From contig NZ_JAPKNJ010000002.1 in the NCBI RefSeq assembly GCF_026343945.1, forward strand, positions 992,001 to 1,056,000: a stretch of DNA of 64,000 bases, given 5' to 3'. A program made the position numbers and the translations under genes. Source of the stretch: Kaistia algarum (GTDB lineage Bacteria; Pseudomonadota; Alphaproteobacteria; Rhizobiales; Kaistiaceae). Of this stretch, positions 32,525-61,021 are shown piece by piece; position 1 is the first letter of the stretch; the number at the start of each line of letters is the position of its first letter. The notes under the pieces were generated by a model. It was not told where the DNA came from and did not search any database. It worked only from the letters and a program-made list of their open reading frames with translations.

Positions 32525-32527
32525 TCC

Positions 32528-33496: not shown

Positions 33497-33497
33497 G

Positions 33498-38384: not shown

Positions 38385-39170
38385 TCAGATGATCGACCGG
38401 CGGGAGGCGATGCCGCCATCGACCGTCACAATGGTGCCGGTGACATAGCCCGCGCGATAGGAGGAGAGGAAGACGATCAGGTCCGTCACCTCATGGACAT
38501 GGGCCGGACGGCCGAGCGGATAGGTGCTTTCGAGTTCACCGTAGCGGCTCTCGTCGCCGAACATGTCCTTCGCGCGCTTCTTCAGCATATTGTAGATACG
38601 GTCCGTGTTGACCGGACCTGGATTGACACCGACGACGCGGATCTTGTCGTCGAGGCTGGAGCCGCCGAGCGCGCGGGTGAAGTGCATCAGGCTCGCATTG
38701 CCCACGGCGCCGGCGATGTAGCGCGGGTCGGTGACCTCGCCGCCATTGCCGATATTGTTGATGATGACGCCGCCGCCCGCCGCCTTCATGCGCGGATAAT
38801 AGAGCCGGCACAGATTGATATAGCCGAAGACCTTCAGCTCCCAGCCGGCGCGCCACTTGGCCTCGTCGACGTCGAACAACGAGCCTGAGGGGATGACGCC
38901 AGCATTGTTGACGAGGATGTCCACGTCGCCGACGGCATCCGCGAGCCGCTCCGCCGCGCCGCTTTCCGTCAGGTCCATGGGGAAGAGCTCGACCGAGAGC
39001 TCGGGCGCTTCGGCGAGTATCTCGGCGCGGATCGCATGAAGCTTCTCGACATTGCGCGCCGTCAGGCGCACCTCGCAGCCTTCATCGGCAAAGGCCCTGG
39101 CAAGCCCGGCCCCGATCCCCTGCGAGGCACCGGTGATGAGCACCTTCTTGCCGGTCAGACGCAGATCCAT
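38385..39170 (-). CDS. SDR family oxidoreductase
   Basis: The 261-residue SDR has cofactor motif TGASQGIGAGLARAF (about residues 12-26), VNNAG, GGVIINNIGNGG and the C-terminal TIVTVDGGIASRR. The usual catalytic Ser-Tyr-Lys triad is altered: where classical SDRs have Tyr-x3-Lys, this protein reads RYIAGAVGNASLMH, so the Tyr seems to be present but the Lys is replaced. I start it at 39170 (MDLRLTGKK) behind CAGGAGA. It is the last gene of the eleven-gene minus-strand operon, after a 94-base gap with a hairpin. The substrate is unknown. Confidence 0.87.
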   Translation of the reverse strand: MDLRLTGKKVLITGASQGIGAGLARAFADEGCEVRLTARNVEKLHAIRAEILAEAPELSVELFPMDLTESGAAERLADAVGDVDILVNNAGVIPSGSLFDVDEAKWRAGWELKVFGYINLCRLYYPRMKAAGGGVIINNIGNGGEVTDPRYIAGAVGNASLMHFTRALGGSSLDDKIRVVGVNPGPVNTDRIYNMLKKRAKDMFGDESRYGELESTYPLGRPAHVHEVTDLIVFLSSYRAGYVTGTIVTVDGGIASRRSII

Positions 39171-39264: not shown

Positions 39265-40194
39265 TCATCGATCCGATCCGATCGTGCGGACATCGCGCCA
39301 GAACGCCATGGTGCTGGCTTCCTCCGGCGGGACGGAGCGGGAAAGCTGGCCATGCTCGAACAGGAACCGCTCGGCATCCCGCACGCGGGCGGGATCGATA
39401 TAGCCGATGCCCCTCGCCGCCCCATCCCCGAGACGGGCGAGCGCGGCGACCTCGCGGATCATGATGGCCTGATGCGCGGAATCGAGATCCGGGCTGCGGC
39501 GCAGGACGGCGGCGACCGCCTCGTCCTGCCGTTCGAAGGATCTGTGCCATCCGCGCAGGCTCGCCGTCAGGAAACGGCCCACGACATCGGGCCTGTCCTG
39601 CAAGGTGCTATCCGCGGCGATGATCGGATCGCGCGGGATGACGATGCCGAAATCGGCCGGATCGAACGCAACGAGATCGTCGATGCCGGACGCTTCGAGC
39701 TTCGGCAACTGGTTGTAGAATGTCGCCGCGGCGACGGCGACCTCGCCATCGACGAAAGGCTGCATGCTGGCCGCCTGCACCACCTCGTCGACCGTGGAGA
39801 GATCCACGCCGGCCCGCCGCAGCATCGCACGCAGGATGAGATGCACGCCGGTGTACCACGTGCTCACCCGCCGGCCCGCGAAGTCCGCCAGCGACCGGAT
39901 GCCGGATCCGCGCCGGGCAATATAGACGACATCGATCTTCTGGAAGAGCGCGGCGATCGCCACCACGGGGAGACCTTCGGCACGCGCCGCGAGCACGCTC
40001 TCGAGGCCCCCGCCCTGCGCGAAATCCGCTTCACCCGTCGCGACGGCGACCTCCGGATCGACACCGGGGCCCCCGACGCGAATATCGACGTCCAGGCCGG
40101 CCTCGGCATAATAGCCGGCGTCCTCGGCCAGATAATATCCGGCGAACTGGGCCTGATGCAGCCATTTGAGCTGAAGCGAGACGTGATCCGTCAT
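39265..40194 (-). CDS. NMT1/THI5-like protein without export signal (copy B)
   Basis: The 309-residue protein has the fold-type wording of NMT1-family ABC binding proteins: VSLQLKWLHQAQFAGYYLAE, GYYAEAGLDVDI, ASMQPFVDGEVAVAAATFYN and FLTASLRGWHRSF. It begins MTDHVSLQLKW, straight at the first beta strand, with no signal peptide. The start overlaps the preceding oxidoreductase stop by four bases, so no upstream extension is possible in frame. It is therefore likely cytosolic. It resembles the exported binding protein encoded at 50327-51334, which has a signal. A cytosolic ligand-binding or enzymatic role, as in yeast THI5, is an inference. Confidence 0.85.
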   Translation of the reverse strand: MTDHVSLQLKWLHQAQFAGYYLAEDAGYYAEAGLDVDIRVGGPGVDPEVAVATGEADFAQGGGLESVLAARAEGLPVVAIAALFQKIDVVYIARRGSGIRSLADFAGRRVSTWYTGVHLILRAMLRRAGVDLSTVDEVVQAASMQPFVDGEVAVAAATFYNQLPKLEASGIDDLVAFDPADFGIVIPRDPIIAADSTLQDRPDVVGRFLTASLRGWHRSFERQDEAVAAVLRRSPDLDSAHQAIMIREVAALARLGDGAARGIGYIDPARVRDAERFLFEHGQLSRSVPPEEASTMAFWRDVRTIGSDR

Positions 40195-41597
40195 TCCTGC
40201 CCGTCCCGTGTTGCTTCCAAAACAGCCGAGAGCGGCACGGGCCTGAGCGGGATACGTGGCGGGTTGAAGCCAGCCTCGCGCGGCGTGATGCCGGTCTCGG
40301 CGGCTGCGATGTCCGCGATGGCGGCGCCGCAGATGCGTCCCTGGCAGCGTCCCATGCCGGCCCGCGTCCAGATCTTGGCGCCCGCGACGGCGTCGGTCCC
40401 CGCAGCGAAGGCTGAAGCGATTTCGGCGCGCGTGATTTCTTCGCAGCGGCAGACGATCGTGTCGTCCTGGGCCAATGTCGCGAGGTCGGCGGGCGGCGCA
40501 TAGAGCCGCCCGAGGCCATCGGAAAAGGCACGCGCCCGGGCGAGCTGTTCCCCGAGGCTCGCGCGCTCGCTCTCGTCGCCTGCGGTATCGGCGCCGAGGT
40601 CGGCCGCAGCAGAGAGCCCGGCGAGGCGACCCGAGAGCCGGGCCGGAACGGCGCCGGCAATGCCCGTGACTTCCCCGGCGGCATAGACGCCTTCAACCGA
40701 GGTGCGTCCGCTCGCCCGGTCCGTGATGCAATGCCAGCCGCCGAGCGCCGGATCATGCTCGTGCCGGCAGCGCAGCAGCGCCGTCAGCTCGATCATCGGC
40801 CGGAAGCCCCAGCCGACCAGCAGCGCATCGATCCCGCCGATGGTCTCGGAACGATCGCGATCGATTCGCCCGCTGCGATCGACCGGCGCGATGCGGATAG
40901 CCGTGACGCGCTCATCGCCGATCGCCTCGGTGACGATCCAGCCGCTGCGCCGCTCGGGAATGGCACGGGCCGCCACCAACAGCCTAGCCGCCTCGCGCCA
41001 GCGGCCGGGATGGCGCGCGAGATGAGCGATGATCGCCAAATCGGTGTGCCGGGCCTCGATCAGCGCAACCGGCGGCTTGCCGAGCTTCACCAGCGTCTCG
41101 GCCACCGCCAGCAGGAACGGCCCGCTGCCGGCGAGCACGACTCGCTCGCCGGCACTCGCCCCGCCGAGCTTGGCGAGGCGCTGGCCGGCGCCCGGCGTCA
41201 TGACACCGGGCAAGGTCCAGCCGGGGAATGGCATCGCGCGGTCATGCGCGCCGGTCGCGACGATGATGGCGCGCGGCACGAATTCGATCGGGCCGTCCGC
41301 CGTATTCGCCAGAACGCGCCGATCCGGAAAGGCAGCGAAAACCTCGGCGCCGGCATGGAAGGCAACACCGCTGGCCTGGGACTTGGCGATGGCCGCCGCC
41401 CCCTCCTCGCCCTGCACGGAGAGCGGCGCAGCCCCCGTCGGGTCCTGCATCCAGTATTGTCCGCCCGGACGAAATCCGGCGTCGACGAGGTCGACCGCAA
41501 TGCCCGCTTCCGCCGCGGCCCGCGCGGCTTCGAGACCGGCCGGGCCGCCGCCGACGACGAGCAGATCCGTCTCGATCCGCCTCATGGGTCCACTCAT
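40191..41597 (-). CDS. FAD/NAD(P)-dependent oxidoreductase with BFD-like [2Fe-2S] end (HcnB/OoxA/LhpE-like)
   Basis: The 468-residue protein has an N-terminal FAD motif VVGGGPAGLEAARAA (about residues 14-28), the segment PGGQYWMQDP, an ATGAHDRAMPFPGWTLPGV stretch and a second nucleotide site VVLAGSGPFLLAVAE. At about residues 380-425 it has a BFD-like domain with Cys-x-Cys (VCRCEE) and Cys-x4-Cys (GRCQGRICG). This is the subunit type shared by hydrogen cyanide synthase HcnB, opine oxidase subunit A and D-hydroxyproline dehydrogenase. It overlaps its neighbours by four bases on both sides and would join the small Fe-S protein and the DAO-type subunit in one complex. Confidence 0.9.
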   Translation of the reverse strand: MSGPMRRIETDLLVVGGGPAGLEAARAAAEAGIAVDLVDAGFRPGGQYWMQDPTGAAPLSVQGEEGAAAIAKSQASGVAFHAGAEVFAAFPDRRVLANTADGPIEFVPRAIIVATGAHDRAMPFPGWTLPGVMTPGAGQRLAKLGGASAGERVVLAGSGPFLLAVAETLVKLGKPPVALIEARHTDLAIIAHLARHPGRWREAARLLVAARAIPERRSGWIVTEAIGDERVTAIRIAPVDRSGRIDRDRSETIGGIDALLVGWGFRPMIELTALLRCRHEHDPALGGWHCITDRASGRTSVEGVYAAGEVTGIAGAVPARLSGRLAGLSAAADLGADTAGDESERASLGEQLARARAFSDGLGRLYAPPADLATLAQDDTIVCRCEEITRAEIASAFAAGTDAVAGAKIWTRAGMGRCQGRICGAAIADIAAAETGITPREAGFNPPRIPLRPVPLSAVLEATRDGQE

Positions 41598-41848
41598 GAG
41601 CGCACCGTCTCGACGCGCATGCCGGCGCGGATCGGCGTCACGCAGGCGCGTACGCCCTCGCGCCCATCGACACGGACCAGGCAATCGAAGCACACGCCCA
41701 TGCCGCAGAAGAGTCCGCGCGGCGCGCCGTCCTTCGCCGTATGACGAAGCACGGCATTCAGCTCGCGATGGAGCAGCGCGCCCAGCGGGCGCCCCGCCTC
41801 CGCCTCGACCGCGCGGCCATCGAGATCGATGGTGACGAGCGCGCTCAT
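41594..41848 (-). CDS. Small (2Fe-2S) protein, HcnA/LhpF-like subunit
   Basis: This 84-residue plant-type ferredoxin-like subunit has Cys48, Cys53, Cys56 and Cys69 in GLFCGMGVCFDCLV and RACVTP, the [2Fe-2S] spacing of HcnA and of the sarcosine/opine-oxidase family small subunits. It should carry electrons inside the three-subunit flavoprotein complex made with its two neighbours. Four-base overlaps at both ends show translational coupling. Confidence 0.92.
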   Translation of the reverse strand: MSALVTIDLDGRAVEAEAGRPLGALLHRELNAVLRHTAKDGAPRGLFCGMGVCFDCLVRVDGREGVRACVTPIRAGMRVETVRS

Positions 41849-43005
41849 GCGGCCGCCCTCCTGTCGAACCGGGCCGGGTCATAGAGATCGCGCCGGAACG
41901 GGCTTTCGCGGCCGGCGACGAGGTCCGCGATGATGCGGGCCATGCCGAGCGAGCGCACGAAGCCGGTACCGCCATCGCCCGCGGCGACGAAGAGGCCGTC
42001 CGGCCCCGCCGGCCCGGTCAGGAAACGATCATCCGGCGTCACCGCCTCGTAGCGCACCCAGGAGCGCAGCAGGTCGATCTCTGCGAACTTCGGAAAGAGG
42101 AAGAGCAGTGTCGCGATGGAATCGCGGATGAAGGCGCGGTCGACCTCGGGAATATCGTCCGGACTGCCGGCCGCCGTGACGCCGCCTTCGAGGACGGTGT
42201 TGAACAGGATCTGGCCGCTCATCGCCTGCTGGATCTGCGTATAGCCGGCATCGACGCCGCCTTCCGCCTTGCAGGCACCGACGACGGTGCGGATCGAACG
42301 CGGGACCGAGACGGTGGCGAGACACTGCGCCTTGCGCGGCACGATCGGCAACTGGACACCCGCCGTCGCCGCGAGCTTCGCGGTCCACGGGCCGCCGGCA
42401 ATCACGACGATCCCCGCCTCGATCGGCCCATCGGCCGTCTCGACGCCCGCGATGCGCCCGCCGACGACCCGCAGCGCCGTCGCCGGATTTCGGCTCACCA
42501 GCGTTGCCCTCGCCGCCTGCGCGGCTTCGAGCAGGCGGCGCACGGCGAGGAAGGGATTGACGACGGCCGAATTCGGCGACCAGGTCGCGGCATGGATCGG
42601 ACCGGTCAGCTCCGGCTCGATGCGGCGCACGGCCTCGGGATCGAGCAGCGTCGGCGAAAGGCCGGCTGCGGTCTCGATGCCGATCCACTCATCGGCGGAG
42701 CGGCGCTCGCTCTCCTGCTTCAGGAACCGCAACTGGCCGCAGCGGGAATATTCGAAGTCCGGCGCGGCCTCGGCAAACGCCGCCCATTCGTCGCAGCACC
42801 ATTTGAGGAGCGGCAGTTCGTCCTCGTCCATCATATGCGTGCCAATACAGGCGAGGCTCGCGCCGGAGACCGCGCCGCCCGGCACGCCCTGCTCGATGAT
42901 GACGACGCGGCGGCCCGCAACGGCGAGCGCGCGCGCAACGGCCGCGCCCACCACCCCGGCGCCCACGACGACCGCGTCCGCCTTCATGCCCGCACCCGGT
43001 TTCAT
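41845..43005 (-). CDS. FAD-dependent amine/amino-acid oxidase (DAO family, HcnC/OoxB-like)
   Basis: This roughly 386-residue DAO-family protein has the motif VVVGAGVVGAAVARALA near the N-terminus, GGAVSGASLACIGTHM, the substrate-domain segments typical of glycine/sarcosine oxidase relatives, and the C-terminal GLFVAAGDGGTGFVRSLG. It would oxidise the C-N bond of an amine or amino acid. I chose the start at 43005 because its ATG overlaps the upstream stop by four bases like the other junctions; the ATG at 43011 is possible. With the two preceding entries it forms a complete HcnABC/opine-oxidase-type heterotrimer. The substrate is unknown. Confidence 0.9.
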   Translation of the reverse strand: MKPGAGMKADAVVVGAGVVGAAVARALAVAGRRVVIIEQGVPGGAVSGASLACIGTHMMDEDELPLLKWCCDEWAAFAEAAPDFEYSRCGQLRFLKQESERRSADEWIGIETAAGLSPTLLDPEAVRRIEPELTGPIHAATWSPNSAVVNPFLAVRRLLEAAQAARATLVSRNPATALRVVGGRIAGVETADGPIEAGIVVIAGGPWTAKLAATAGVQLPIVPRKAQCLATVSVPRSIRTVVGACKAEGGVDAGYTQIQQAMSGQILFNTVLEGGVTAAGSPDDIPEVDRAFIRDSIATLLFLFPKFAEIDLLRSWVRYEAVTPDDRFLTGPAGPDGLFVAAGDGGTGFVRSLGMARIIADLVAGRESPFRRDLYDPARFDRRAAA

Positions 43006-43949
43006 CCCCATGCGGCGCTCCGCACAGCCTCCGGCGCAGCGCGCCAGAAGCGATCGTCGACCAGACCCTCTTCCGCCGGCGCGTGCCCTTCGACTTCCGA
43101 CATGGCGACCAGCGCCTGGCGGATATGCTTCGGATCGGGATAGCCGAGCCCCTGCGTCAGGGTCGCGCCGGCCAGCGCGAGCGCGCGGATATCGGCCAGC
43201 TGGCCCTCCTGTTCGAGCCGCGCCATATCCGGCCGCAGCCGGCAGCAGAGCGCGATCGCTGCTTCGAGATTGTGGAAGGCCTTGGTCCAGCCCGTCAGCA
43301 CGGCATTGACCACGGCCTGAACGATGTGCGGGTTGGCGGCGACGAAATCGCGCCGGGCGATGAGCCCATCCTTGAGCAGCGACGCGCCATAATCGGCGGC
43401 GCGGAAGAGGACGAAATCGTCGAGCGATCCGGCCGCGTGCTCCAGATGATGGATCTCGTGATAGGTCGTCATCTGCGCGCAGTCGACACGACCGTCCATC
43501 ATGGCGCCGACCGTGTCGCCCACCGCAATCCGCTCATAGGCGTCGAGCGCGAGGCCGGCGCGCTTCAGCATGAAGGTGAGTTCGAGGTCTTCGCGGCCCG
43601 GCCAGACGCCGATGCGATGGCCGGCAAGATCCGTGGGCCGCGCAATGCCCGCACTGCGCCGTGCTGGATAGACCAGCGCGCTCTCCTGCTGGATCGCGAG
43701 CAGGAAAACCAGTTCCTCCGAACGGCCGCTTTCCAGCATGTGCGACGGGCTCGCCACGGCGAAATCGACGTCGCCATCCAGCAGTGCCGCGATCGGGCCC
43801 TTGGCGAAATCGAGCGGCACACATTTGAGGTCCAGCCCGACATCGCGCGCCAGCCCCTCATGCTCGGCGATCAGATAGCCGGCGAATTGCGGCTGCGGGT
43901 GCCAGAGAAGGCGGATCTTGATGGGCTGCACGTCGCCTCGCCTATCCAT
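43002..43949 (-). CDS. NMT1/THI5-like protein without export signal (copy A, HExxH segment)
   Basis: The 315-residue protein has NMT1-family wording: IKIRLLWHPQPQFAGYLIAE, VDFAVASPSHML, VLTGWTKAFHN. Its N-terminus MDRRGDVQPIKI has no signal peptide, and the in-frame extension to 44045 adds no hydrophobic stretch. Where the paralogues have YNEL and YNQL, this copy has YHEIHHLEH at residues 163-171, giving four histidines and an HExxH string. It is encoded between the aldehyde dehydrogenase (8-base overlap) and the DAO subunit (4-base overlap). A cytosolic metal- or ligand-binding role is an inference; a displaced ABC binding protein is the conservative reading. Confidence 0.84.
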   Translation of the reverse strand: MDRRGDVQPIKIRLLWHPQPQFAGYLIAEHEGLARDVGLDLKCVPLDFAKGPIAALLDGDVDFAVASPSHMLESGRSEELVFLLAIQQESALVYPARRSAGIARPTDLAGHRIGVWPGREDLELTFMLKRAGLALDAYERIAVGDTVGAMMDGRVDCAQMTTYHEIHHLEHAAGSLDDFVLFRAADYGASLLKDGLIARRDFVAANPHIVQAVVNAVLTGWTKAFHNLEAAIALCCRLRPDMARLEQEGQLADIRALALAGATLTQGLGYPDPKHIRQALVAMSEVEGHAPAEEGLVDDRFWRAAPEAVRSAAWG

Positions 43950-45462
43950 AACGCTTGCCACCGGCGAACCAGTCGTCGAACCGCTCCGCCGTCGAGACCA
44001 GCACGTTGCGCTTCCTCTGGTAGGAGCGGAGCGCGTCCCAGCCATTCTCGGTGCCGTAGCCGCTGTCGCCGAACCCGCCCCAGATCGAGCGCGGATCGTT
44101 CTTGTGATGATCGTTCACCCAGATCATGCCGGCCCGCACCTTGCCGGCCATCCGGTGCGCCCGCGCCACGTCGCGCGTCCAGATCGAGGCGCCGAGCGCA
44201 TAGGGCGTGTCATTGGCGATCGCGAGCGCCTCGGCCTCGCCGGAGAACGGCGTCACGGCCGCGATCGGGCCGAAGACCTCCTCGCGGAACAGCGTCATCG
44301 ACGGTGCGACATCGGCGAAGACCGTCGGCTCGACAAAGTTGCCGCCCGAGAACGGTGCCGGAAGAGACGGCACGCCGCCACCCGCGACGAGCCTTGCGCC
44401 TTCCGCCTTGGCGGTCTCGATATAGGCGAGGCAGCGGTCGCGCGAGGTGGCCGAGATCACCGGACCGATATCGGTCGCAAGGTCGGCCGGATCGCCCTGC
44501 CGCAGCGCCTCGACGCGCGCCACGAAGGCCTCGATGAACGGCTCGTAGATCGCCTCCGCGACGATGAAACGGCTGGCGGAGACGCAGGTCTGTCCCGCCG
44601 CGACGAAGGCGGCGAAGACGGCGCCGGCCGCCGCTTCGTCGATGTCGCTGTCCTCGAAGATCACGACCGGCGTCTTGCCGCCGAGCTCCAGCGTGCAAGG
44701 CACGAGGCGCGCGGCAGCCGCGGCCGCGACCTTGCGGCCCGTGCCCGTGCCGCCGGTCAGGTCGATATGGCGGACGGCCGGTGCGTTGCAGACGAGCGAG
44801 CCGGTCGTGCCGTCGCCGGTGACGACATTGACGACCCCCGCCGGAAGGCCGGCCTCGCGGCACCATTCCGCCAGCAGCAATGGGGTGGCCGGGGCGAGTT
44901 CGGATGGCTTGACCACCACCGTATTGCCGGCGGCGAGCGCGGCGGCCAGCTTCTTGACGAGAATGAGGATGGGATGGTTCCACGGCGTCAGCAGCGCGCA
45001 GACGCCATGCGACTCATAGGCGGTATAGGAGAGGAAGCCACCGCGCAGGCGATTGGATTCGCCTTCAAGGCCCGCGGCGATGCCGCCGAAATAGTCGAGC
45101 CACTCCGGAATACGGCCCATCTGCGCGCGCATCTCGCGGATCGGCCGGCCGGTGATCGCCGATTCGAAGGTCGCCAGCTCGCCGATGCGGCTGCGCACGA
45201 TCTCGGCCAGTGCGCGCAGATGCCGGCCACGGTCGAGCGCATCCAGCGCGCCCCAGGCCGGCGCCGCCGCCGAAGCGGCGTCCATCGCCGCCGCAACATC
45301 GTCGGCTCCCGCGAGCGGCACGGCGCCGAAGCGCGCGCCGCTGGCGGGACTGACGACCGGGATCATCGCCGCCGAACGGGCCTCCTGAAAGGCGCCGCCA
45401 TAATGCAGCAGCCGGCCCGACAAGAACGGCAGTTCCGCCCAGCCTGCGGTGTCGGCCGTCAT
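43942..45462 (-). CDS. NAD(P)-dependent aldehyde dehydrogenase
   Basis: The 506-residue ALDH has CTLELGGKTPVVIF (catalytic Glu), FVAAGQTCVSASRFIV (catalytic Cys), LLTPWNHPILILVKK and IWGGFGDSGYGTENG near the end. The last motif, with GTENGWDALRSYQRKRNVLV, resembles the betaine/semialdehyde dehydrogenase branch. It would oxidise an aldehyde released by the flavin oxidase or the monooxygenase of the same operon (inference). Its start overlaps the LLM gene stop by four bases. Confidence 0.92.
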   Translation of the reverse strand: MTADTAGWAELPFLSGRLLHYGGAFQEARSAAMIPVVSPASGARFGAVPLAGADDVAAAMDAASAAAPAWGALDALDRGRHLRALAEIVRSRIGELATFESAITGRPIREMRAQMGRIPEWLDYFGGIAAGLEGESNRLRGGFLSYTAYESHGVCALLTPWNHPILILVKKLAAALAAGNTVVVKPSELAPATPLLLAEWCREAGLPAGVVNVVTGDGTTGSLVCNAPAVRHIDLTGGTGTGRKVAAAAAARLVPCTLELGGKTPVVIFEDSDIDEAAAGAVFAAFVAAGQTCVSASRFIVAEAIYEPFIEAFVARVEALRQGDPADLATDIGPVISATSRDRCLAYIETAKAEGARLVAGGGVPSLPAPFSGGNFVEPTVFADVAPSMTLFREEVFGPIAAVTPFSGEAEALAIANDTPYALGASIWTRDVARAHRMAGKVRAGMIWVNDHHKNDPRSIWGGFGDSGYGTENGWDALRSYQRKRNVLVSTAERFDDWFAGGKRYG

Positions 45463-46760
45463 CGCTTCGGCTCCGGCCGCGCGAGGCCGAGATGGTCGCG
45501 CAGCGTCGTACCTTCATAGTCAGCGCGAAACAGGCCGCGCTCCTGCAGGATCGGCACGACCAGATCGACGAAATCGTCGAAGCCGCCGGGGAAATAGGGC
45601 GGCATGATGTTGAAGCCGTCGGCGGCGCCGTTCTCGAACCAGTGCTGCAGCGTATCGGCGATGGTCTCCGCCGAGCCGCACAGGACCCAGTGCCCGCGCG
45701 CGGCGGCCGTCAGGTTATACAGATCGCGCAGCGTCATGTTCTCGCGCTTCGCCTTGGCCAGCATGACGCTCGCAAACGCATGATAGGCGTCGGAGGGCTT
45801 CAGATCGTCCGGGATCGGGCCATCGAGATTATAGACGCTCATATCCTTGCCGAAGCGATCGGAGAGCATCGCGAAGGCATTGGTCGATGAGACGAAACCC
45901 TGCAGCGTCTTCAGCTTGTCGAACGCCTCGCGGTCGGTGCGCCCGACGACCGGCATCACGCCCGGCAGCACCGTCACGTCCTCCGCGCGGCGGCCAAATT
46001 CCGGCAGCAGCGCCTTGAACGACGCATATTGCTGCTGCGCCTCGGCGAGATCCTGCACGACGGAGAAGACGACGTCGGCCGTGCGCGCCGCCAGGCGCTG
46101 GCCCGGAGCCGAGCCGCCGGCCTGCAGCACGATCGGCTGGCCCTGCGGCGAGCGGCCGATATTGAGTGGCCCCTTCACCTGGAACCATTTGCCGTCGTGA
46201 TCCAGCGCATGGACCTTGGCAGGATCGATATAAAGCCCGCTCTCCCGATCCGCGACGATCGCGTCGTCGTCCCAGCAATCCCAGAGCTGCTTCACGACGC
46301 CGACGAATTCCTCGGCGATCTCGTAGCGCAGCGCATGATCGGGGTGTTCACGCCCGAAATTGGCGCCGCTCGCCGCATTCGACGTCGTCACCGCATTCCA
46401 GGCGGCGCGGCCATTCGAGATATGGTCGAGCGAGGCGAAGGCGCGCGCCGTGCTGAACGGGTCGCCATAGGTGGTCGAGGCCGTCGCACCAAGGCCGATA
46501 TGGCTTGTCGTGACGGAGAGGGCCGAAAGCATCGTCAGCGGCTCGAGCCGGGCCGTATAGGACGGATGCGCGGCCGGATCGGCATAGAGATTGTCGCCCA
46601 TGAAGATCAGGTCGAACTTGCCGCGCTCGGCAATCCGCCCGATCTCCTGAATCTGCTTGAGGTCCTGGAAGCTGTCGAAGGCGCCCGGATAGCGCCAGCC
46701 GGCGATATGGCTGCCCGTTCCGAGGATGAACAGGCCGAGATGGATCTGTCGCTTGGTCAT
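45459..46760 (-). CDS. LLM class flavin-dependent monooxygenase (NtaA/SnaA/DszA branch)
   Basis: The 433-residue luciferase-like protein has HLGLFILGTGSHIAGWRYP, GRIAERGKFDLIFMGDN, ARLEPLTMLSALSVTTSHIG, SLDHISNGRAAWNAVTTSN and PIVLQAGGSAPGQRLAARTAD, the pattern of FMNH2-dependent two-component monooxygenases such as NtaA, DszA and DmoA. These attack C-N or C-S bonds of small molecules; the wider LLM family also contains RutA, which opens the uracil ring. A flavin reductase is needed but none is seen in the window. Four-base overlaps couple it to the ALDH and nucleoside hydrolase genes. Confidence 0.92.
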   Translation of the reverse strand: MTKRQIHLGLFILGTGSHIAGWRYPGAFDSFQDLKQIQEIGRIAERGKFDLIFMGDNLYADPAAHPSYTARLEPLTMLSALSVTTSHIGLGATASTTYGDPFSTARAFASLDHISNGRAAWNAVTTSNAASGANFGREHPDHALRYEIAEEFVGVVKQLWDCWDDDAIVADRESGLYIDPAKVHALDHDGKWFQVKGPLNIGRSPQGQPIVLQAGGSAPGQRLAARTADVVFSVVQDLAEAQQQYASFKALLPEFGRRAEDVTVLPGVMPVVGRTDREAFDKLKTLQGFVSSTNAFAMLSDRFGKDMSVYNLDGPIPDDLKPSDAYHAFASVMLAKAKRENMTLRDLYNLTAAARGHWVLCGSAETIADTLQHWFENGAADGFNIMPPYFPGGFDDFVDLVVPILQERGLFRADYEGTTLRDHLGLARPEPKR

Positions 46761-47701
46761 TTGAGCACCGAAATCATCATGTCGGCGAAACCGGCCTTAT
46801 CGGCCTTGCGCACGATGCGGGCATTGGGCGTCTTCTTCTCCCAGCCTTCCACCAGGCCGGCCGGATAGACGGCGGAGAAGCCGCGCGTCGTCTCGCCGCC
46901 GACTTCCATCTCGACCACCGCCTCGACGCTTTCGAGGATCAGGCTTTCGTCGATCGCCATGGCGGTGGTCAGCGAATCCGGATGGGTGTTCATGATCGCG
47001 CCATAGCGCTCGCGCGCGGTCTTCATCGGCGTCTCCGATACGTCCATGTAGAATTTGGAGAGCTTCGTCCCGAGGCCGGCGATGCGCTCGATCGTGTCGG
47101 CATGGAAAAAGCCGGAGGAGAGCGTCAGCGTCCAGGTCGAGAGCGTGACGTTGAAGCCGGCTTCCAGCACAATCTTCGCCGCCTCCGGATCGACGTAGAA
47201 ATTGAACTCGGCAGCCGGCGTGACATTGCCGACCGCGTTGTCGGTGCCGCCCATGATCCAGAGCTGCTTCAGCGCCTTGGCGATGCGCGGCTCCTTCAAA
47301 TAGGCGAGCGCGATATTGGTCAGCGGCGCCTGCGCGATGATCGAGATCTCGCCCGGATTGGCCATGACGAGATCGATGATGGCGTCGATGGCGTGCTTCG
47401 CCTCGGGGCGCTGCTTCGCCTTCTCGAACACCATCTCGCTCATGCCGTTGGAGCCGTGATAGCTCGCGGCGCGCCAGCGGCCCATCAGCGGGCGGGCGCT
47501 GCCGAGATAGACCGGCACCTCCCCGCCCCGCCCCGCGACCTCGATCGTGTGCAGGGCGTTCTCGACCTGAAGGTCGAAGGCGACATTGCCATTGCAGATC
47601 GTCACCGCCTCCAGGCTGGCATTCGGATGCAGGAGACCGAGCAGCAGCGAAAAGCAGTCGTCGCCGGCCGTATCCGTGTCGATAATCAGGCGCGTGGTCA
47701 C
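46757..47701 (-). CDS. Nucleoside hydrolase
   Basis: The 314-residue protein begins MTTRLIIDTDTAGDDCFSLL, containing the Asp cluster of the inosine-uridine nucleoside hydrolase fold that binds Ca2+ (usual form DTDPGxDD; here Thr-Ala replaces Pro-Gly). NGNVAFDLQVENAL and IMGGTDNAVGNVTPAAEFNF are further family segments with the conserved Asn and Glu. It should cleave the N-glycosidic bond of a ribonucleoside-like compound. Its place between the bicupin and the LLM monooxygenase makes a nucleoside or N-riboside a candidate substrate of the operon. Confidence 0.92.
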   Translation of the reverse strand: MTTRLIIDTDTAGDDCFSLLLGLLHPNASLEAVTICNGNVAFDLQVENALHTIEVAGRGGEVPVYLGSARPLMGRWRAASYHGSNGMSEMVFEKAKQRPEAKHAIDAIIDLVMANPGEISIIAQAPLTNIALAYLKEPRIAKALKQLWIMGGTDNAVGNVTPAAEFNFYVDPEAAKIVLEAGFNVTLSTWTLTLSSGFFHADTIERIAGLGTKLSKFYMDVSETPMKTARERYGAIMNTHPDSLTTAMAIDESLILESVEAVVEMEVGGETTRGFSAVYPAGLVEGWEKKTPNARIVRKADKAGFADMMISVLK

Positions 47702-48663
47702 TTGGCTGCATCCAGGAATGTGAAGCCCATGGTGCGGGCGTGATAGTGCAGGCCGCCATCCTGGACGATCAGGAACATGGCGCGCTCGTCGCTGTCATTG
47801 TGATGGGAATGCGGCTCGGTCGCCGGCGTCACCAGCGTCGCGAAAGGTGACCAGTCGCAGCGCTCACCGCCGACCATCGAATAGCAGTTCTCGCCCTTCA
47901 GGATCAGCGTGATCGCCGCCGAATTGTGCCGATGCGCCCGCTGCTGCTCGCCGGCCGGAACGGTATTCAACGAGAGCGTCAGCGTCGGCAGGATGTTGCG
48001 GGCCGCCTCCTGGCGGTCGGAGGAGAAGATGAGCGCGATGCCTGAGGTCGTGGCGTTCTGCGCGGCTTCGATCACCTTCTGAAGCTGGAGCGCGATCTCG
48101 CCCGCCGGATAATGCACGGCGTCGACCGGCGCCTCGGCGGAATCGGCGGGGCGGAGCGAATCGAAGGCGAGCTGAGGCTCGTTTGTGACAACCCAGAGCA
48201 CAGCGCCGCCATCAAGGGCCGAAAGGCTAGTCGGCACGCCGCCGGGTGCCAGAAAGACGTCGCCCGGGCGGAAATCGAAGGCCTCGGTTCCCGCTGCGAC
48301 CGAGCCGGAGCCACGGATGACGTACCAGATGGCACCCGTTGCGCGGAAATCGGCGGTGAGCGTTTCCCGGGGAGCGATCGACGCATAGCGCGCCAGCATG
48401 AGAGGCGTCGTGGACGGAAAAGGCGAGCCTATCGCCGCCGACTGGTCGCAGGCATAGAAGCCGGTCGCGCCCGAAGAGAGGGCGAGTTCCGGCTCGCTCA
48501 CGAAGCGCGTCGCCGGAACCGGCGGAAGCTTGACGTTGAATGCATTGCCGGAGTTGAAGAAGCGCGCCCGGGCCGCCGCGGGTCCATTGGGACCGGAGGG
48601 GAGTTGAACCGGCATCTCCGCCATGTCGATCGGAGCCGGCTTCGGCGCGGGCTGGCTGGTCAT
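47698..48663 (-). CDS. Cupin domain protein (bicupin, gentisate-dioxygenase-like fold)
   Basis: The 321-residue protein has two cupin cores: an N-terminal one with IWYVIRGSGSVAAGTEAFDFRPGD (written here as IWYVIRGSGS and FDFRPGDVF), and a C-terminal one with AHRHNSAAITLILKGENCYS split as RAHRHNSAAI and ILKGENCYS. The C-terminal half keeps metal-type histidines (AHRHN and PHSHHND near the end). It could be a dioxygenase or a ligand-binding protein. The start at 48663 has AGGAGAG upstream. It follows the amidase gene by 11 bases and overlaps the nucleoside hydrolase gene by four. Confidence 0.85.
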   Translation of the reverse strand: MTSQPAPKPAPIDMAEMPVQLPSGPNGPAAARARFFNSGNAFNVKLPPVPATRFVSEPELALSSGATGFYACDQSAAIGSPFPSTTPLMLARYASIAPRETLTADFRATGAIWYVIRGSGSVAAGTEAFDFRPGDVFLAPGGVPTSLSALDGGAVLWVVTNEPQLAFDSLRPADSAEAPVDAVHYPAGEIALQLQKVIEAAQNATTSGIALIFSSDRQEAARNILPTLTLSLNTVPAGEQQRAHRHNSAAITLILKGENCYSMVGGERCDWSPFATLVTPATEPHSHHNDSDERAMFLIVQDGGLHYHARTMGFTFLDAAK

Positions 48664-48674
48664 CGGATCTCTCC

Positions 48675-50075
48675 TCAAAGTACCGGACGGCGACGATGCC
48701 AGTCGGTCACGGTCTGATAGGCATGGGCGGCACGGCAAATCAGTGCTTCCGCGAACGGCCTGCCGGCGAACTGGAACGCCATGGGAATGCCGGAACGGCT
48801 GGCGCCGCAAGGTACCGTGATCGTCGGATAACCGCACACGTCGAAAGGTGCGTTGAACGGCCCGACAGCGAGAATGCCGTCAGGGTCGGGGCCCAGCGTC
48901 GACATATATTCAAGCGTCGGACCGGCCACGGGGATGGTCGGGACCAGCAGCAGGTCGATCGGGTCAAACATCAGCGCGATCGCACCATTGAATGAGCGCC
49001 GCGATTTCAAGGCCTCGGCCAGTTCGAACGCAGTGACGCGGCTGCCATGGTCCAGAAGCGCTGCCAACCGCTCGCCATATTGGTCGCGCATTGCGGGGAA
49101 GGTGTCGCGATGCGCGATGGCGGCCTCGACCGCGCATTGCGTATGCCAGCCATAGAGAATGGCCTGCGTGTCGGGAAAGCTCACATCGACGAAGCACGCA
49201 CCGAGCCCGGTCATCACCCCGACGGCCGCCTCGATGGAAGCCAGCACCTCGTCGTCGGCCTTCGCCCGCATGAAGCTCCAGTCTATGCCGATGGTGAAGC
49301 CGGCAACGCCGCCCTCGATCTCGGCGAGATAATCGGGAACCACGTTCGGGGAAGCGGTCGGATCCAGCGGATCAGCCCCGGCGATCACCTGCAGCAGCGC
49401 GGCGGCGTCCTTCGCGGAGCGGGCCATGGAGCCGACATGATCGAGCGATTCGGCGAGCGGGAATACACCGTGGCGCGAGACGCGGCCCCAGGTCGGTTTG
49501 ATGCCGGTCAGACCGCAGGAGGCCGAAGGCAGGCGGATCGAGCCACCCGTATCGGTGCCGAGCGTGCCATAGGCCAGGCCCGACGTGACGGCGACGCCGG
49601 AGCCGCTGGAGGAGTTGCCGGTCCAGTGTGCCGCGCCAAAGGGATTGATCGGCTCGGTGACCGTTGGATGATGCTGGGCATAGACGCCTTCGGTCGCCGT
49701 CAGCTTGCCGAGCAGGATCGCGCCGGCATCGCGCAGGCGCTGCGTCGTCGTCGATTCATGCGGCACCTGCCAGTCGGCGTAGATCGACGAGCCGAGGCTG
49801 GTCTTGATGTCGGTGGTGTAGAAGACGTCCTTCACCGCAACGGGAATGCCGTGCAGCGGGCTGCGCCGGAGACCGGCCGCGATCTCGGCATCGGCCCTGG
49901 CGGCGGCGGCCAGCGCCAGTTCCGGCTCGATGGCGACATAGGAATGGAGCGCGCCGTCAAAGCGGGCTACGCGCTCGATCATCAGTTCGGTGAGCGCGAC
50001 GGAGGTTACCGTGCCGCTATCGAGATGCGGCGCCAGGGCCGTGAACTCCTCCGCCCAAAGTTGCTGCTCGGTCAT
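48675..50075 (-). CDS. Amidase signature family hydrolase
   Basis: The 466-residue amidase has the Ser-cisSer-Lys triad: Lys in GIPVAVKDVFYTTD, cis-Ser and nucleophile in GNSSSGSGVAVTSGLAYGTL and GTDTGGSIRLPSA. It hydrolyses a linear amide, or ring-opened amide, to acid and ammonia or amine. I start it at 50075 (MTEQQLWAEEF); the frame continues to 50312, but those 79 residues are unlike the family and would cover the promoter region. It is the first gene of the eleven-gene minus-strand operon. Confidence 0.9.
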   Translation of the reverse strand: MTEQQLWAEEFTALAPHLDSGTVTSVALTELMIERVARFDGALHSYVAIEPELALAAAARADAEIAAGLRRSPLHGIPVAVKDVFYTTDIKTSLGSSIYADWQVPHESTTTQRLRDAGAILLGKLTATEGVYAQHHPTVTEPINPFGAAHWTGNSSSGSGVAVTSGLAYGTLGTDTGGSIRLPSASCGLTGIKPTWGRVSRHGVFPLAESLDHVGSMARSAKDAAALLQVIAGADPLDPTASPNVVPDYLAEIEGGVAGFTIGIDWSFMRAKADDEVLASIEAAVGVMTGLGACFVDVSFPDTQAILYGWHTQCAVEAAIAHRDTFPAMRDQYGERLAALLDHGSRVTAFELAEALKSRRSFNGAIALMFDPIDLLLVPTIPVAGPTLEYMSTLGPDPDGILAVGPFNAPFDVCGYPTITVPCGASRSGIPMAFQFAGRPFAEALICRAAHAYQTVTDWHRRRPVL

Positions 50076-50326
50076 GCCTTCATCCGACTGGGGATCGGCC
50101 GCGCATCGCGCCTGCCAGGATGGCGTATACAATAAATGACATTCTGGATAATCATTGCCCATAATGTGAGCGACGGCCGCCCATAAGCGTGGCGATGCGA
50201 GAGTTGGGTACCGCGAAGCTCGCGGATTGGACTCCTTATAGATGGGAGGCCGGCCTGGAGTGCCGAACTGCGACTGGCATGCATATTGCTGAGCACTTTC
50301 TGCATACATCAACCGGAGTGTCGGTC
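50076..50326. promoter_or_regulatory. Divergent promoter region with candidate GntR/FCD operators
   Basis: This 251-base gap separates the amidase operon (minus) from the NMT1-type importer (plus). GCGTATACAA (50123-50132) and CTGCATACAT (50300-50309) are close to the palindromic core TTGYATACAA and to the exact repeat found upstream of the GntR gene and the PPC/ECF operon. One site lies near each promoter. A small dyad CCGCGA/TCGCGG is at 50211-50225. Confidence 0.45.
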
Positions 50327-51334
50327 ATGACGTTCTTCAAGCATGGACTTGCCATGGCGGTCGTCGCCGCGGCAGCCGCATGGTCTGCGACAGCGCCAGC
50401 CGGCGCCGCCGAGCCCGTTTCCGTCCGTCTCAAATGGCTGCCGCAGGCGCAGTTCGCCGGCGTCTATGTCGCCAAGGCCAAGGGCTTCTATGAGGCAGCC
50501 GGCCTGGACGTGACAGTCAATCCCGGCGGCCCGAACATCAATGTCGAAACGCTCGTCGCCTCCGGCGCCGATACCTTCGGCGTCGCTTCCGGCACCGAGG
50601 GCGTGCTCTATTCGCGCGAAAAGAAGCTGCCGCTGAAGGCGATCGCCATGTCGCAGCAGATGACGCCCTTCGCCTATGTCGCCTACACCGAATCCGGCAT
50701 CAATTCGGTCAAGGACTTCAAGGGCAAGAAGGTCGCCACCTGGATGGTCGGCCCGCAATATACGCTCTACTCCGTGCTCGCCGCCGAAGGTCTGCCGCAA
50801 AACGAAGTCGACATCGTCTCGCAGCCCTTCTCGATGCAGCCTTTCATCGACAAGCAATTCGATGTCGCGACGGTCACGCTCTACAACGAGCTGAACACGC
50901 TGAAGGAACAGGGCATCGACAACATCAAGCTGTTCCTGCCCGATGATTCCGGCGTCACGACGCAGCAGGACGCGATCGTCACCTCCGAGAAGATGATCAC
51001 CGAGAAGCCCGAGCAGGTTCAGGCCTTCCTGAACGCGACGCTCAAGGGCTGGAAATACGCGTTCGAGCACAAGGACGAGGCCGTCGACATTGTCATGGCG
51101 TCGGGCCCCGGCCTCGAGCGCAAGCATCAGGAGCTGATGCTGGCCGAAATCGAGCGCCTCATGGTTGCCAAGCTTGGCTCCTCGGAAGGTCTCGGCGCGA
51201 TCGACCTCGTCTCGATCGGCAAGGTGCAGGACGATTTGATCAAGTTCGGCGCGATGAAGACGCCGGTCGACGTCAAGGAAGCCTTCGACACCTCGTTCTG
51301 GGAGAAGGTCCCGGCCGAAGACAAGAAGATGTAG
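50327..51334 (+). CDS. NMT1/THI5-type ABC transporter substrate-binding protein
   Basis: The 335-residue protein has a clear signal peptide (MTFFKHGLAMAVVAAAA, cut near AGAAEP). The mature domain matches ThiY/RibY/SsuA-type NMT1 proteins: VSVRLKWLPQAQFAGVYVAK, GFYEAAGLDVTVNPGGPN, SMQPFIDKQFDVATVTLYN. It should bind a pyrimidine-, flavin- or sulfonate-like molecule in the periplasm for the ATPase and two permeases that follow. Start at 50327 with CCGGAG upstream. It is clearly related to the two signal-less proteins encoded on the other strand. Confidence 0.93.
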   Translation: MTFFKHGLAMAVVAAAAAWSATAPAGAAEPVSVRLKWLPQAQFAGVYVAKAKGFYEAAGLDVTVNPGGPNINVETLVASGADTFGVASGTEGVLYSREKKLPLKAIAMSQQMTPFAYVAYTESGINSVKDFKGKKVATWMVGPQYTLYSVLAAEGLPQNEVDIVSQPFSMQPFIDKQFDVATVTLYNELNTLKEQGIDNIKLFLPDDSGVTTQQDAIVTSEKMITEKPEQVQAFLNATLKGWKYAFEHKDEAVDIVMASGPGLERKHQELMLAEIERLMVAKLGSSEGLGAIDLVSIGKVQDDLIKFGAMKTPVDVKEAFDTSFWEKVPAEDKKM

Positions 51335-51431: not shown

Positions 51432-52276
<845 letters not shown>

Positions 52277-52280
<4 letters not shown>

Positions 52281-53026
52281 CGATCCGCGACGCCGTCCGC
52301 ACGCCCTATGCCGCGGTGCTGATCGTCGCGTTGCTCTGGCTTGTCTGCGTGCCGCTGTTCAAGATCGAGCCGCGCTACCTGCCCGCCCTCCCCGTCGTAA
52401 TCGCCGATGCCGCCTCGGTCTGGCGTGAGCTCGCCGCCGGCTTCTGGCGGACCTTTTTGGAGACCGTGCTGGGCTTCCTCGCGGGCTCGCTGCTCGGCAT
52501 TGCGTTCGGCATCGCCTTTGCCTCCTCGCGGCTGCTTGAGCGTGCGCTCTTCCCGATCTTCGTCGCGCTCCAGACCGTGCCCGTCATCGCCTTTGGCGCG
52601 ATCGTCGTCATCTGGTTCGGCAATACGATCCTCGCCAAGGTCGTGATCGCGCTCTACCTTGCGTTCTTCCCGGTCGCGGTGAACACGCTGCGCGGCCTCG
52701 AACAGGCCGATCCGCAACGCATCGCGCTGATGCGGAGTTTCGGCGCCTCTCGCCTCACCCTCTTTCTCAAGCTGCAACTGCCGACGGCGGCGCCGAACAT
52801 TATCATCGGCATGAAACTCGCCGTGGCGCTCAGCCTTGCCGGCGCGGTCGTTGGCGAATGGTTCGGCGATACGGTCGGTCTCGGCGTCATGCTGTTGCAG
52901 GCGCTTTACTTCGAGCAGATCGCCCGCGTCTGGGTGTTGATTATCGCCTGCGGGGTGCTCGGAACGCTGCTTTATGGCGCGCTCGCGCTTCTCGAAAGGA
53001 GGTTCGTATGGTGGCGACCCGATTGA
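52277..53026 (+). CDS. ABC transporter permease (SsuC/ThiX type)
   Basis: The 249-residue inner-membrane protein has the coupling-helix region NTLRGLEQADPQRIALMRSFGASRLTLF, read here as RGLEQADPQRIALMRSFGAS, followed by LPTAAPNIIIGMKLAV. About six hydrophobic segments are visible. The ATG at 52277 overlaps the ATPase stop (ATGA). It is one of two permeases of the importer. Its end overlaps the second permease start by 19 bases. Confidence 0.93.
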
Positions 53027-53766
53027 AGTCGCTTGGCAACGCCCTCCCCGTCGCCGCGGCGCTCGTTCTGCTGCTGCTCGCCTGGCAGTTTGGCGCGGCG
53101 GTGCTGGACGTGCCGACTTACATCCTGCCGAAGCCGGCCGAGATCCTCGCAACCGCCCTGGGCCGCATCGGATTCTTCGGCGGGCAACTCTATGTCACGC
53201 TGGTCGAGGCGGTCGGCGGCTTCCTGATCGGATCCGCACTCGGCATTCTCCTCGCCGTGCTCATGATCCTGCTGCCGGTGCTGGAGATCATGCTGATGCC
53301 GCTCGCCATGGTCATCAATGCGGTGCCGTCGATCGCCTTCGTGCCCTTGGTGCTGCTCTGGTTCGGGCTTGGCATGAGTTCCAAGATCGCGATCGGCGCG
53401 CTCGCCGTCGTCTTCGTCGTGCTGCTGAATGTGCTGTCCGGCCTGAAGCGGCCCGACGCCGAGGCGATCAATCTGATGCGCTCCTTCGGGGCCAGCCGGA
53501 TTGGCATTCTCTGGCGGCTCCAGCTCCCGGCCGGCATGCCCTCGCTGGTCACCGGCCTTCGCGTCGGCCTTGCCCGCAGCACCATCGCCGTCATCGTGGC
53601 GGAAATGATGGGCGCCTATAGCGGCATCGGGCAAGTCATCTATCAGGCGACCGCACAGGTCGATTCTCTCACGGTCTGGGCGGCGGTGTTCGTCGCCTCG
53701 CTGGCCAGTCTCGCGCTTTATGGCGTGCTGGTTGCCCTCGACCGCAAGCTCGTATGGTGGAGATGA
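53008..53766 (+). CDS. ABC transporter permease (SsuC/ThiX type)
   Basis: The 252-residue second permease has NVLSGLKRPDAEAINLMRSF and LPAGMPSLVTGLRVGLARST as coupling region, plus about six membrane segments. The start at 53008 has a perfect AAAGGAGG upstream, inside the end of the first permease gene. Two different permeases imply a heterodimeric channel. The stop overlaps the aldolase ATG (53763-53766), so the aldolase is translated with the transporter. Confidence 0.93.
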   Translation: MVATRLKSLGNALPVAAALVLLLLAWQFGAAVLDVPTYILPKPAEILATALGRIGFFGGQLYVTLVEAVGGFLIGSALGILLAVLMILLPVLEIMLMPLAMVINAVPSIAFVPLVLLWFGLGMSSKIAIGALAVVFVVLLNVLSGLKRPDAEAINLMRSFGASRIGILWRLQLPAGMPSLVTGLRVGLARSTIAVIVAEMMGAYSGIGQVIYQATAQVDSLTVWAAVFVASLASLALYGVLVALDRKLVWWR

Positions 53767-56402: not shown

Positions 56403-56428
56403 ATCATATCCCTGTGGACAATGACGCC

Positions 56429-56881: not shown

Positions 56882-56920
56882 TGGACCCGAAGCGCTCCCG
56901 CGAGCCGGAAGGGCAGTGAA

Positions 56921-61010: not shown

Positions 61011-61021
61011 GGGCGGTGGAC

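Follow-up and report, generated by a model that had tools for sequence, protein, structure and literature searches.

Proteins of the NMT1 family without an export signal, linked to a probable flavin/iron-sulfur dehydrogenase in Alphaproteobacteria

Background

What would a protein of the NMT1/THI5-like fold, a fold best known from exported ligand catchers of importers, do in an operon of flavoenzyme genes when it carries no export signal? The question is raised by a stretch of 64,000 nucleotides from Kaistia algarum (contig NZ_JAPKNJ010000002.1, positions 992,001 to 1,056,000; this whole stretch is called the window, and all coordinates are window positions unless a locus or contig is named). 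It encodes two such proteins, named here nmtA (39265-40194) and nmtB (43002-43949), on either side of the genes for a three-subunit enzyme that comprises a DAO-family subunit, a small [2Fe-2S] protein (hcnA) and an HcnB-like protein (hcnB). An original prediction, made from the letters of the window, had regarded both as possible cytosolic ligand carriers, subunits of the neighbouring enzyme, or enzymes in their own right. Here we report that nmtB belongs to a conserved alphaproteobacterial family that is tied to the dehydrogenase more tightly than to an importer, and that nmtA is a separate case. We then weigh what nmtB may do.

Results and discussion

Linkage of nmtB to the dehydrogenase

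Among 297 genomes of the order to which Kaistia belongs, relatives of the DAO subunit at E≤1e-60 were found in nine, and precisely these nine also gave an nmtB match of at least 55% identity. A further 30 genomes gave nmtB matches, all at 35% identity or less, which is the kind of match given by exported paralogs. One genome of the same genus (G244) is without both nmtB and a close relative of DAO. The gene order nmtB-DAO-hcnA-hcnB is kept in all eight relatives from this sample and in a further genome of the genus Kaistia (G677). It is also kept in 16 of 17 loci retrieved from named genomes by a search for two short conserved peptides; in the remaining one (L089) the contig stops just after nmtB. 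These 17 loci come from Kaistia, Aestuariivirga, Salipiger, Paracoccus, Rhodobacter, Tropicimonas, Marinibacterium, Roseovarius and others; the records titled Mesorhizobium and Bosea are the genomes G278 and G130, which we counted as members of the genus Kaistia. The window's genome lies very near that of Kaistia hirudinis (L077), whose nmtB has 96% identity to the window's.

When each distinct locus was counted once, by hand, over all samples, 22 nmtB loci were obtained. The DAO gene is adjacent in 21 of them (the contig of the last one ends there), an aldehyde dehydrogenase was likewise detected in 21, and a nucleoside hydrolase in 15. The relation to the importer is looser. In 14 loci nmtB lies after the gene of an exported substrate-binding protein, so that the importer there already has a binding protein of its own; in seven it directly follows the aldehyde dehydrogenase gene, and in L092 it follows this gene too, at a distance of 219 bases. 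No gene of an ATP-binding cassette (ABC) importer is therefore adjacent to nmtB in eight loci, namely seven of the Kaistia type and L092, in whose 20.9 kb we detected neither an NMT1 substrate-binding protein nor an ABC permease, and where genes of an energy-coupling factor (ECF) importer are present. Since DAO is adjacent in 21 of the 22 loci and an importer gene is not in eight, the constant partner of nmtB is the dehydrogenase and not the importer. The link to HcnABC-type genes that had been proposed for this genome is thus borne out by conserved gene order and by co-occurrence, and it is not unique to this genome, as nine of the 297 genomes share both genes.

Absence of an export signal

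Signal peptides were scored with Kyte-Doolittle hydrophobicity windows, a heuristic of our own and not SignalP. The open frames upstream of nine nmtB orthologs reached 11-residue maxima of at most 0.57 (two frames were too short for a score). Those of four nmtA orthologs reached at most 0.68, except for a value of 1.17 in G225, which lies about 170 codons upstream inside an overlapping gene. The paired exported substrate-binding proteins gave 2.1-2.5 in six of nine cases (the values for G225, G130 and G050 were taken at the wrong place and are unusable). A wider scan covered NMT1 hits with E≤1e-12 across the loci, with rows not deduplicated, so that several represent the same gene in two loci, and called signal-like any row with h≥1.7. 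By this measure all 75 rows nearest the exported substrate-binding protein are signal-like, as compared with none of the 37 nmtB rows (three of which went unscored because no start codon fell in the scanned span; these three also begin at the strand) and none of the 12 rows of nmtA orthologs. Six distant rows nearest nmtA comprise four that are signal-like and two slightly under the threshold. By eye, nmtB of G677 also begins at the strand and has a polar upstream frame.

All nmtB proteins of the 17 named loci begin a few residues ahead of I-R-L-L-W (the starts as chosen being ATG in 15, GTG in one and TTG in one), and this uniformity makes chance or a wrongly chosen start codon an unlikely explanation. 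The claim that neither protein has an export signal is accordingly upheld: both begin at the first strand, their upstream frames are polar, and no nmtB ortholog that we examined has a signal peptide at an alternative start. The argument originally offered for it, that overlaps of four and eight bases with neighbouring genes lock the starts, fared less well. A GTG at 43931 (V-Q-P-I-K-I-R-L), which lies 10 bases past the stop codon of the aldehyde dehydrogenase, lines up with the starts of the orthologs, so that nmtB probably starts there and the eight-base overlap is no lock; across the 17 named loci, the spacing between nmtB and the gene before it runs from -8 to +449 bases. A later start of nmtB would make the absence of a signal a stronger claim still. 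Judged by the missing signal, nmtA and nmtB are both predicted to be cytosolic.

The neighbouring flavin/iron-sulfur enzyme

nmtA and nmtB do flank the DAO, [2Fe-2S] and HcnB-type genes, as had been noted; what needs revision is the name "oxidase" given to their product. R-x-W in the DAO subunit, C-x4-C-x2-C-x11/12-C in the small subunit, and C-x-C and C-x4-C with the spacing of a BFD domain in the HcnB-like subunit were each found in 17 of 17 loci. The G-x-G-x-x-G motif of DAO, with G or A at its end, was found in all but one of the 16 loci that have DAO; the exception (L077) matches the strict form. In the accessible part of the report on flavin-containing opine dehydrogenase (PMC4575208), the same R-x-W motif is given for the beta subunit and the same four-cysteine motif for the gamma subunit, the gene order is beta-gamma-alpha, the cofactors are flavin adenine dinucleotide, flavin mononucleotide and [2Fe-2S], and the activity is that of a dehydrogenase and not of an oxidase. 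Because subunit order and motifs are those of an enzyme reported without oxidase activity, we call the window enzyme a dehydrogenase, which it probably is. Opine dehydrogenase, D-hydroxyproline dehydrogenase and HcnABC share with it three subunits encoded in tandem in the beta-gamma-alpha order and the same motifs. The window enzyme differs in adjoining nmtB, whereas the accessible part of PMC4575208 describes the opine and D-hydroxyproline enzymes with three subunits and mentions no NMT1 partner; its authors do hold that the beta subunit does not bind the substrate by itself. In the literature that we searched, mostly outside subscription journals, nothing on point was found on NMT1 proteins without a signal or on NMT1 proteins beside HcnABC-type genes.

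Family membership and nearest structures

Both proteins are encoded on the minus strand, and the recognition of their NMT1/THI5-like character from the letters was correct: they match PF09084 with 167.1 (nmtA) and 110.7 bits (nmtB), the curated cut-off being 20.5. The motif they were said to have in common with the exported binding protein encoded at 50327-51334 was confirmed as W..Q.QFAG, and our alignment reveals that nmtB retains this core together with the late GW.AF segment of binding proteins. ThiY (3ix1) and a binding protein from Clostridioides difficile (4nmy) are the closest solved relatives of nmtA (E 2.2e-17 and 7.7e-18, respectively) and are also within reach of nmtB. These are exported ligand catchers of ABC importers, whereas nmtA and nmtB lack a signal and adjoin enzyme genes. 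A search of a plasmid collection gave 60 matching records. The 40 listed, at 24-29% identity, bear for the most part the annotation of an ABC transporter substrate-binding protein, and none of those listed is an nmtB ortholog.

The desulfinase DszB, thiaminase I and MqnA/MqnD are enzymes with a binding-protein fold and provide a precedent for the same fold as a catalyst; a monooxygenase of the DszA family is also encoded in the window. PDB sequence searches with nmtA and nmtB returned no match named as any of these enzymes, and their substrates and catalytic residues differ from those of nmtB or cannot be compared with them. DszB has its catalytic cysteine in the cleft; Cys43 of nmtB, which may or may not lie in the cleft, is conserved in 19 of 19 aligned sequences.

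The comparison with yeast THI5 made in the original prediction holds in part. The THI5/NMT1 pyrimidine synthase of yeast and some bacteria has, like nmtB, the NMT1 fold and no signal peptide, and in an ungapped pairwise alignment (offset 4) His70 of nmtB, conserved in 19 of 19 sequences, falls on residue 66 of the THI5 chain (4h6d), which we take to be a histidine characteristic of that enzyme. The analogy fails at what are presumably its other features: a lysine at residue 62 that holds pyridoxal phosphate, where nmtB has Ala66, and the CCCFC motif, which is absent from the translations of both nmtA and nmtB. The match of nmtB to the THI5 structure is itself marginal (E 0.1). A role of nmtB as a THI5-like pyrimidine synthase was rejected because the lysine and the CCCFC motif are missing.

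Phylogeny and the separate case of nmtA

For the tree, rows shorter than 250 residues were removed first, and thinning the other 130 at about 97% identity left 82. nmtA and nmtB form separate clades, each with support of 100/100, and two changes of the signal label are needed. The two proteins, which had been treated as one phenomenon, are therefore two: they lost the signal separately, nmtB is spread across Alphaproteobacteria, and nmtA was found in Kaistia only. A common origin of nmtA and nmtB was rejected on the same grounds. The nmtB clade has a stem of 1.94 changes per column and joins (96/85) the exported protein that is encoded next door in most loci.

nmtA occurs in five of 14 Kaistia genomes, always together with nmtB, which occurs in eight; in G293 and G130 the operon is present without it, and at comparable identity no nmtA was found outside Kaistia in the sample of 297 genomes. 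Its orthologs have intact open reading frames and 66-67% identity. It carries Gln162 where 47 of 49 exported rows have Glu, a difference that says little, since only five sequences from one genus are at hand. nmtA is thus a second, independent loss of the signal and a local addition in Kaistia. With low confidence, we consider it more likely to be a cytosolic ligand binder than an enzyme.

Conserved residues of nmtB

Polar and aromatic residues conserved in at least 95% of nmtB sequences were compared with the consensus of five groups (four exported ones and nmtA), after six divergent rows had been dropped (L004, L005, L006, L032, L049 and L050). Seventeen positions are conserved specifically in nmtB, or 16 without W314 at the ragged C-terminus. 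With G677 added, C43, S67, H70, E73, S74, E120, D121, T146, H164, H167, E170, K193, R239 and H275 are present in 19 of 19 sequences, and D241 in 18 of 19. The nmtB proteins of the 17 named loci contain 7-14 histidines each, as against 1-5 in the last 300 residues of 16 paired substrate-binding proteins. The conserved polar set and the long stem of the clade suggest new chemistry more than a new ligand.

As to conservation level, we calculated the mean pairwise identity over ten loci outside Kaistia, with pairs at 97% identity or more excluded. nmtB (63.0%) is above DAO (55.0%), hcnB (52.9%) and hcnA (48.9%); aldehyde dehydrogenase (71.8%) and nucleoside hydrolase (80.9%, six loci) are more conserved than nmtB.

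Proposed role of nmtB

In the scheme that we infer, down to the order of its steps and its substrate, nmtB arose as a duplicate of an exported substrate-binding protein. Having shed the signal peptide, it would now serve in the cytosol as the dedicated partner of a flavin/iron-sulfur amine dehydrogenase with three subunits (DAO-HcnA-HcnB type), and would be in physical contact with that enzyme. An NMT1-type ABC importer, in many genomes also an ECF importer, would take up a nitrogen compound, often nucleoside-like, and the nucleoside hydrolase, where present, would strip off the sugar. The cleft of nmtB, refitted with conserved His, Glu, Asp and Lys, would receive the ligand, and nmtB would most likely not just carry it but convert it chemically, either ahead of the dehydrogenase or following it. 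The dehydrogenase would oxidise a C-N bond, and the aldehyde dehydrogenase would oxidise the aldehyde so formed. That nmtB is a dedicated cytosolic partner of the dehydrogenase, be it an enzyme or a carrier, is very probable from the sequences compared here; that this partner is catalytic we hold just short of an even chance, an enzyme appearing somewhat more likely than a carrier.

Several observations weigh against a catalytic nmtB or against the evidence for it. The conserved residues are presumed to lie at the cleft from sequence alignment and from the general features of the fold. S67, H70, E73 and S74 fall in a gapped stretch of the alignment (residues 60-76), and if this stretch is read without the gap, the window's exported protein (by eye) has S67 as well and the specific set is fifteen or sixteen; H17 is replaced by Gln in G677 (18 of 19). 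The residues that set nmtB apart could reflect a changed ligand and not catalysis, and relaxed constraint could also produce a long stem. nmtB is more variable than the paired substrate-binding protein (63.0% against 69.1%). The tree program warns that nmtB and the neighbouring exported protein may have been drawn together by their long branches, and the composition of several rows of both nmtB and nmtA is unusual. Lastly, the nucleoside hydrolase was not detected in seven of the 22 loci, one of them truncated.

Much of this would suit non-catalytic cytosolic carriers or docking subunits, nmtB and also nmtA, that hand a scarce or reactive substrate or product to the dehydrogenase, and we regard this as a real possibility, tentative as it is. 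The NMT1 fold binds ligands, nmtB keeps the core and the late segment of binding proteins, the linkage to the dehydrogenase applies here just as well, and the opine dehydrogenase authors look beyond the beta subunit for substrate binding (PMC4575208, accessible part). What speaks against a mere carrier is that the polar make-up of the presumed cleft was changed strongly and then fixed across orthologs 49-96% identical to the window's nmtB, and the opine and D-hydroxyproline enzymes are presented, in the same part of that source, with three subunits and no such protein. The old binding cleft might also make nmtB a ligand sensor that controls the dehydrogenase or the regulator of the operon. A ligand-binding fold without export could serve in this way, and 11 of the 12 loci L082-L093 have a GntR-type gene close to the operon; we nevertheless find a sensor improbable, as Pfam detects the NMT1 domain alone, with no DNA-binding or signalling domain, and nmtB adjoins the dehydrogenase and not the regulator.

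Two further explanations were weighed. Functionless, decaying leftovers of duplicated transporter genes might be expected to lose the signal as an easy first step, and the patchy occurrence of nmtA is in keeping with decay. Nevertheless, the nmtB frame is intact in every aligned locus and better conserved than DAO, hcnB and hcnA (if less so than the substrate-binding protein, aldehyde dehydrogenase and nucleoside hydrolase), and that of nmtA is intact as well, which makes decay very unlikely. Least credible of all are ordinary periplasmic binding proteins with an overlooked signal or another export route, in spite of a family that is otherwise exported, down to every row nearest the exported substrate-binding protein. 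The upstream frames are polar; ahead of QFAG, the nmtB frame of G225 and G130 is open for just 18 codons and the nmtA frame of G278 for 16; and the genes stand in tight series with genes of cytosolic enzymes.

Possible substrates

The company of nmtB consists of an ABC importer in most loci, the nucleoside hydrolase, the amine dehydrogenase, the aldehyde dehydrogenase and short-chain dehydrogenases; ECF importer genes were found in seven of the 12 loci L082-L093. According to the accessible part of PMC9295807, xanthine and uric acid are ligands of NMT1-motif RNAs, so that an NMT1 importer could reasonably be expected to handle purine-like compounds; no Rfam riboswitch was matched at gathering score in window positions 34000-64000 or in L082-L087.

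A more specific, speculative candidate substrate is queuosine. The operon would then degrade or salvage queuosine or queuine: the hydrolase would free queuine, the dehydrogenase would cleave its secondary amine and the aldehyde dehydrogenase would yield 7-carboxy-7-deazaguanine, a chemistry that the three enzymes would fit and that is compatible with the other readings of nmtB. The ECF S components of the operon in L086 and L088 match PF12822 and NF045596 (ECF_S_CD3073), albeit with only one of the two over the PF12822 cut-off and both under that of CD3073 (136.0 and 136.8 of 180 bits), and PF12822 is a broad family. The accessible parts of two reports show that QrtT, an S component for queuosine and preQ1, also belongs to PF12822 (PMC11130926) and that C. 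difficile has queK (nucleoside hydrolase), qrtT and queL in one operon (PMC11477304). That salvage system thus resembles the present one in combining a nucleoside hydrolase with a PF12822 S component, and differs in using a radical lyase where an amine dehydrogenase is found here; no NMT1 protein is mentioned in the accessible part. It is the PF12822 S component and the queK-qrtT-queL operon that make queuosine a lead, not a result. Against it, the hydrolase is nearest to the purine nucleosidases 3t8i and 3t8j in the PDB, ECF genes are present in just those seven of 12 loci, and no queuosine gene was recognised beside the operon, where no search aimed at such genes was made. In the literature covered (again mostly outside subscription journals) "CD3073" was found in no paper and nothing on point was found on queuine catabolism. 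On balance we consider the queuosine route unlikely. We consider still less probable the bolder conjecture that nmtB founds a new class of binding-protein-fold enzymes, derived from a signal-less duplicate of the exported binding protein next door, with His, Glu, Asp and Lys in catalytic or metal-binding roles. Together with the HcnABC-type dehydrogenase it would dismantle a modified nucleoside such as queuosine by an oxidative pathway not yet described, a route for breaking queuine without the radical lyase QueL.

The genome of the window itself has an S component 62% identical to the copy of L086. No S component was seen beside the EcfT-A1-A2 module of the window, and this CD3073-like protein is encoded at contig C2:1078133-1078699, about 22 kb beyond the window end. 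A wider search found such S components in two of 385 genomes, this one included; around the second (L108) no queuosine gene was recognised by eye.

Operon and neighbouring genes

The minus-strand operon runs amidase, double cupin, nucleoside hydrolase, monooxygenase, aldehyde dehydrogenase, nmtB, DAO, [2Fe-2S] protein, HcnB-like protein, nmtA, short-chain dehydrogenase, and the exported NMT1 binding protein with the ABC importer diverges from it (Table 1). Homologs of the ATPase and permeases keep the same order beside the exported substrate-binding protein in relatives.

Table 1. Features of the window discussed in the text, with coordinates and supporting evidence
Feature	Coordinates	Strand	Evidence and remarks
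nmtB, signal-less NMT1 protein, putative partner of the dehydrogenase	43002..43949	-	PF09084 E 1.3e-31; ortholog alignments, adjacency, tree; likely start GTG 43931, not ATG 43949
nmtA, second signal-less NMT1 protein, Kaistia only in the samples searched	39265..40194	-	PF09084 E 7e-49; 5/14 genus genomes; own clade
DAO-family catalytic (beta-type) subunit, R-x-W at residue 316	41845..43011	-	PF01266 E 2.3e-57; closest PDB 1y56_B
Small [2Fe-2S] (gamma-type, HcnA-like) subunit	41594..41848	-	PF13510 E 2.8e-24; C-x4-C-x2-C-x11/12-C
HcnB-like (alpha-type) subunit, Pyr_redox_2 and BFD-like [2Fe-2S]	40191..41597	-	PF07992, PF17806, PF04324; motifs
Aldehyde dehydrogenase	43942..45462	-	PF00171; homolog detected in 21/22 nmtB loci
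NtaA/DszA-type flavin monooxygenase	45459..46760	-	TIGR03860 536.6 bits, over cut-off; PDB 3sdo, 5tlc; Kaistia-type operon version only
Nucleoside hydrolase	46757..47701	-	PF01156 E 3.7e-76; closest PDB 3t8i purine nucleosidase; homolog detected in 15/22 nmtB loci
Double-cupin protein, gentisate-dioxygenase-like	47698..48666	-	PF07883, PF02311; TIGR02272 below cut-off
Amidase	48675..50081	-	PF01425 E 3.5e-89
Short-chain dehydrogenase, operon end	38385..39170	-	PF13561; NF004779 over cut-off
Exported NMT1 binding protein with signal peptide, the control	50327..51334	+	PF09084 E 7.8e-53; hydrophobic N-terminus
ABC ATPase (51432-52280) and two permeases (ending 53026 and 53766)	51432..53766	+	named by eye from translations
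PCC-domain-like open reading frame (56414-56881, by eye against L086) and EcfT-EcfA1-EcfA2 module	56414..59374	+	

Further genes lie around the operon. Window positions 59529-63138 and, past the window, positions 1-14643 of L095 encode an HpaB-type monooxygenase, an amidase, a PuuE-like protein, a flavin reductase, an EutA/arylmalonate-decarboxylase-like protein and an 8-oxoguanine deaminase (616.9 bits, over the cut-off), which looks like an island for the degradation of N-heterocyclic rings. Its part beyond the window (L095 6848-7825) encodes one more NMT1-like protein (PF09084 24.1 bits, cut-off 20.5) with no obvious hydrophobic start, which by eye recalls the 4,5-dihydroxyphthalate decarboxylase type. 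On the other side, at 31757-35468, two open reading frames resemble electron-transfer flavoprotein subunits and are followed by a large Fe-S oxidoreductase (by eye only). Among L082-L093, eight of the 12 loci have a member of an aminotransferase family beside the nmtB operon (members from L084, L086 and L091 were tested with Pfam; that of L086 is over the PRK06225 cut-off). Mutually similar proteins adjoin the GntR gene in L085 (3512-4192), L089 (3451-4164) and L093 (3297-4064), and their start resembles, by eye only, the Amdase/EutA-like protein of the Kaistia island (L095 1146-1868).

Conclusions

Substrate-binding proteins are usually annotated as parts of transporters. Members of the nmtB family, which occur in Alphaproteobacteria of soil and sea, carry no export signal and are linked more closely to an amine dehydrogenase than to an importer. 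If nmtB is an enzyme, it would join the few known catalysts derived from this fold, and in 14 of the 22 loci the gene next door still encodes the exported protein nearest to it in the tree. If it is a carrier, it would represent an unusual cytosolic use of the binding-protein fold, in which the substrate is handed to an enzyme. Either way, annotations of "ABC transporter substrate-binding protein" in catabolic operons merit re-examination.

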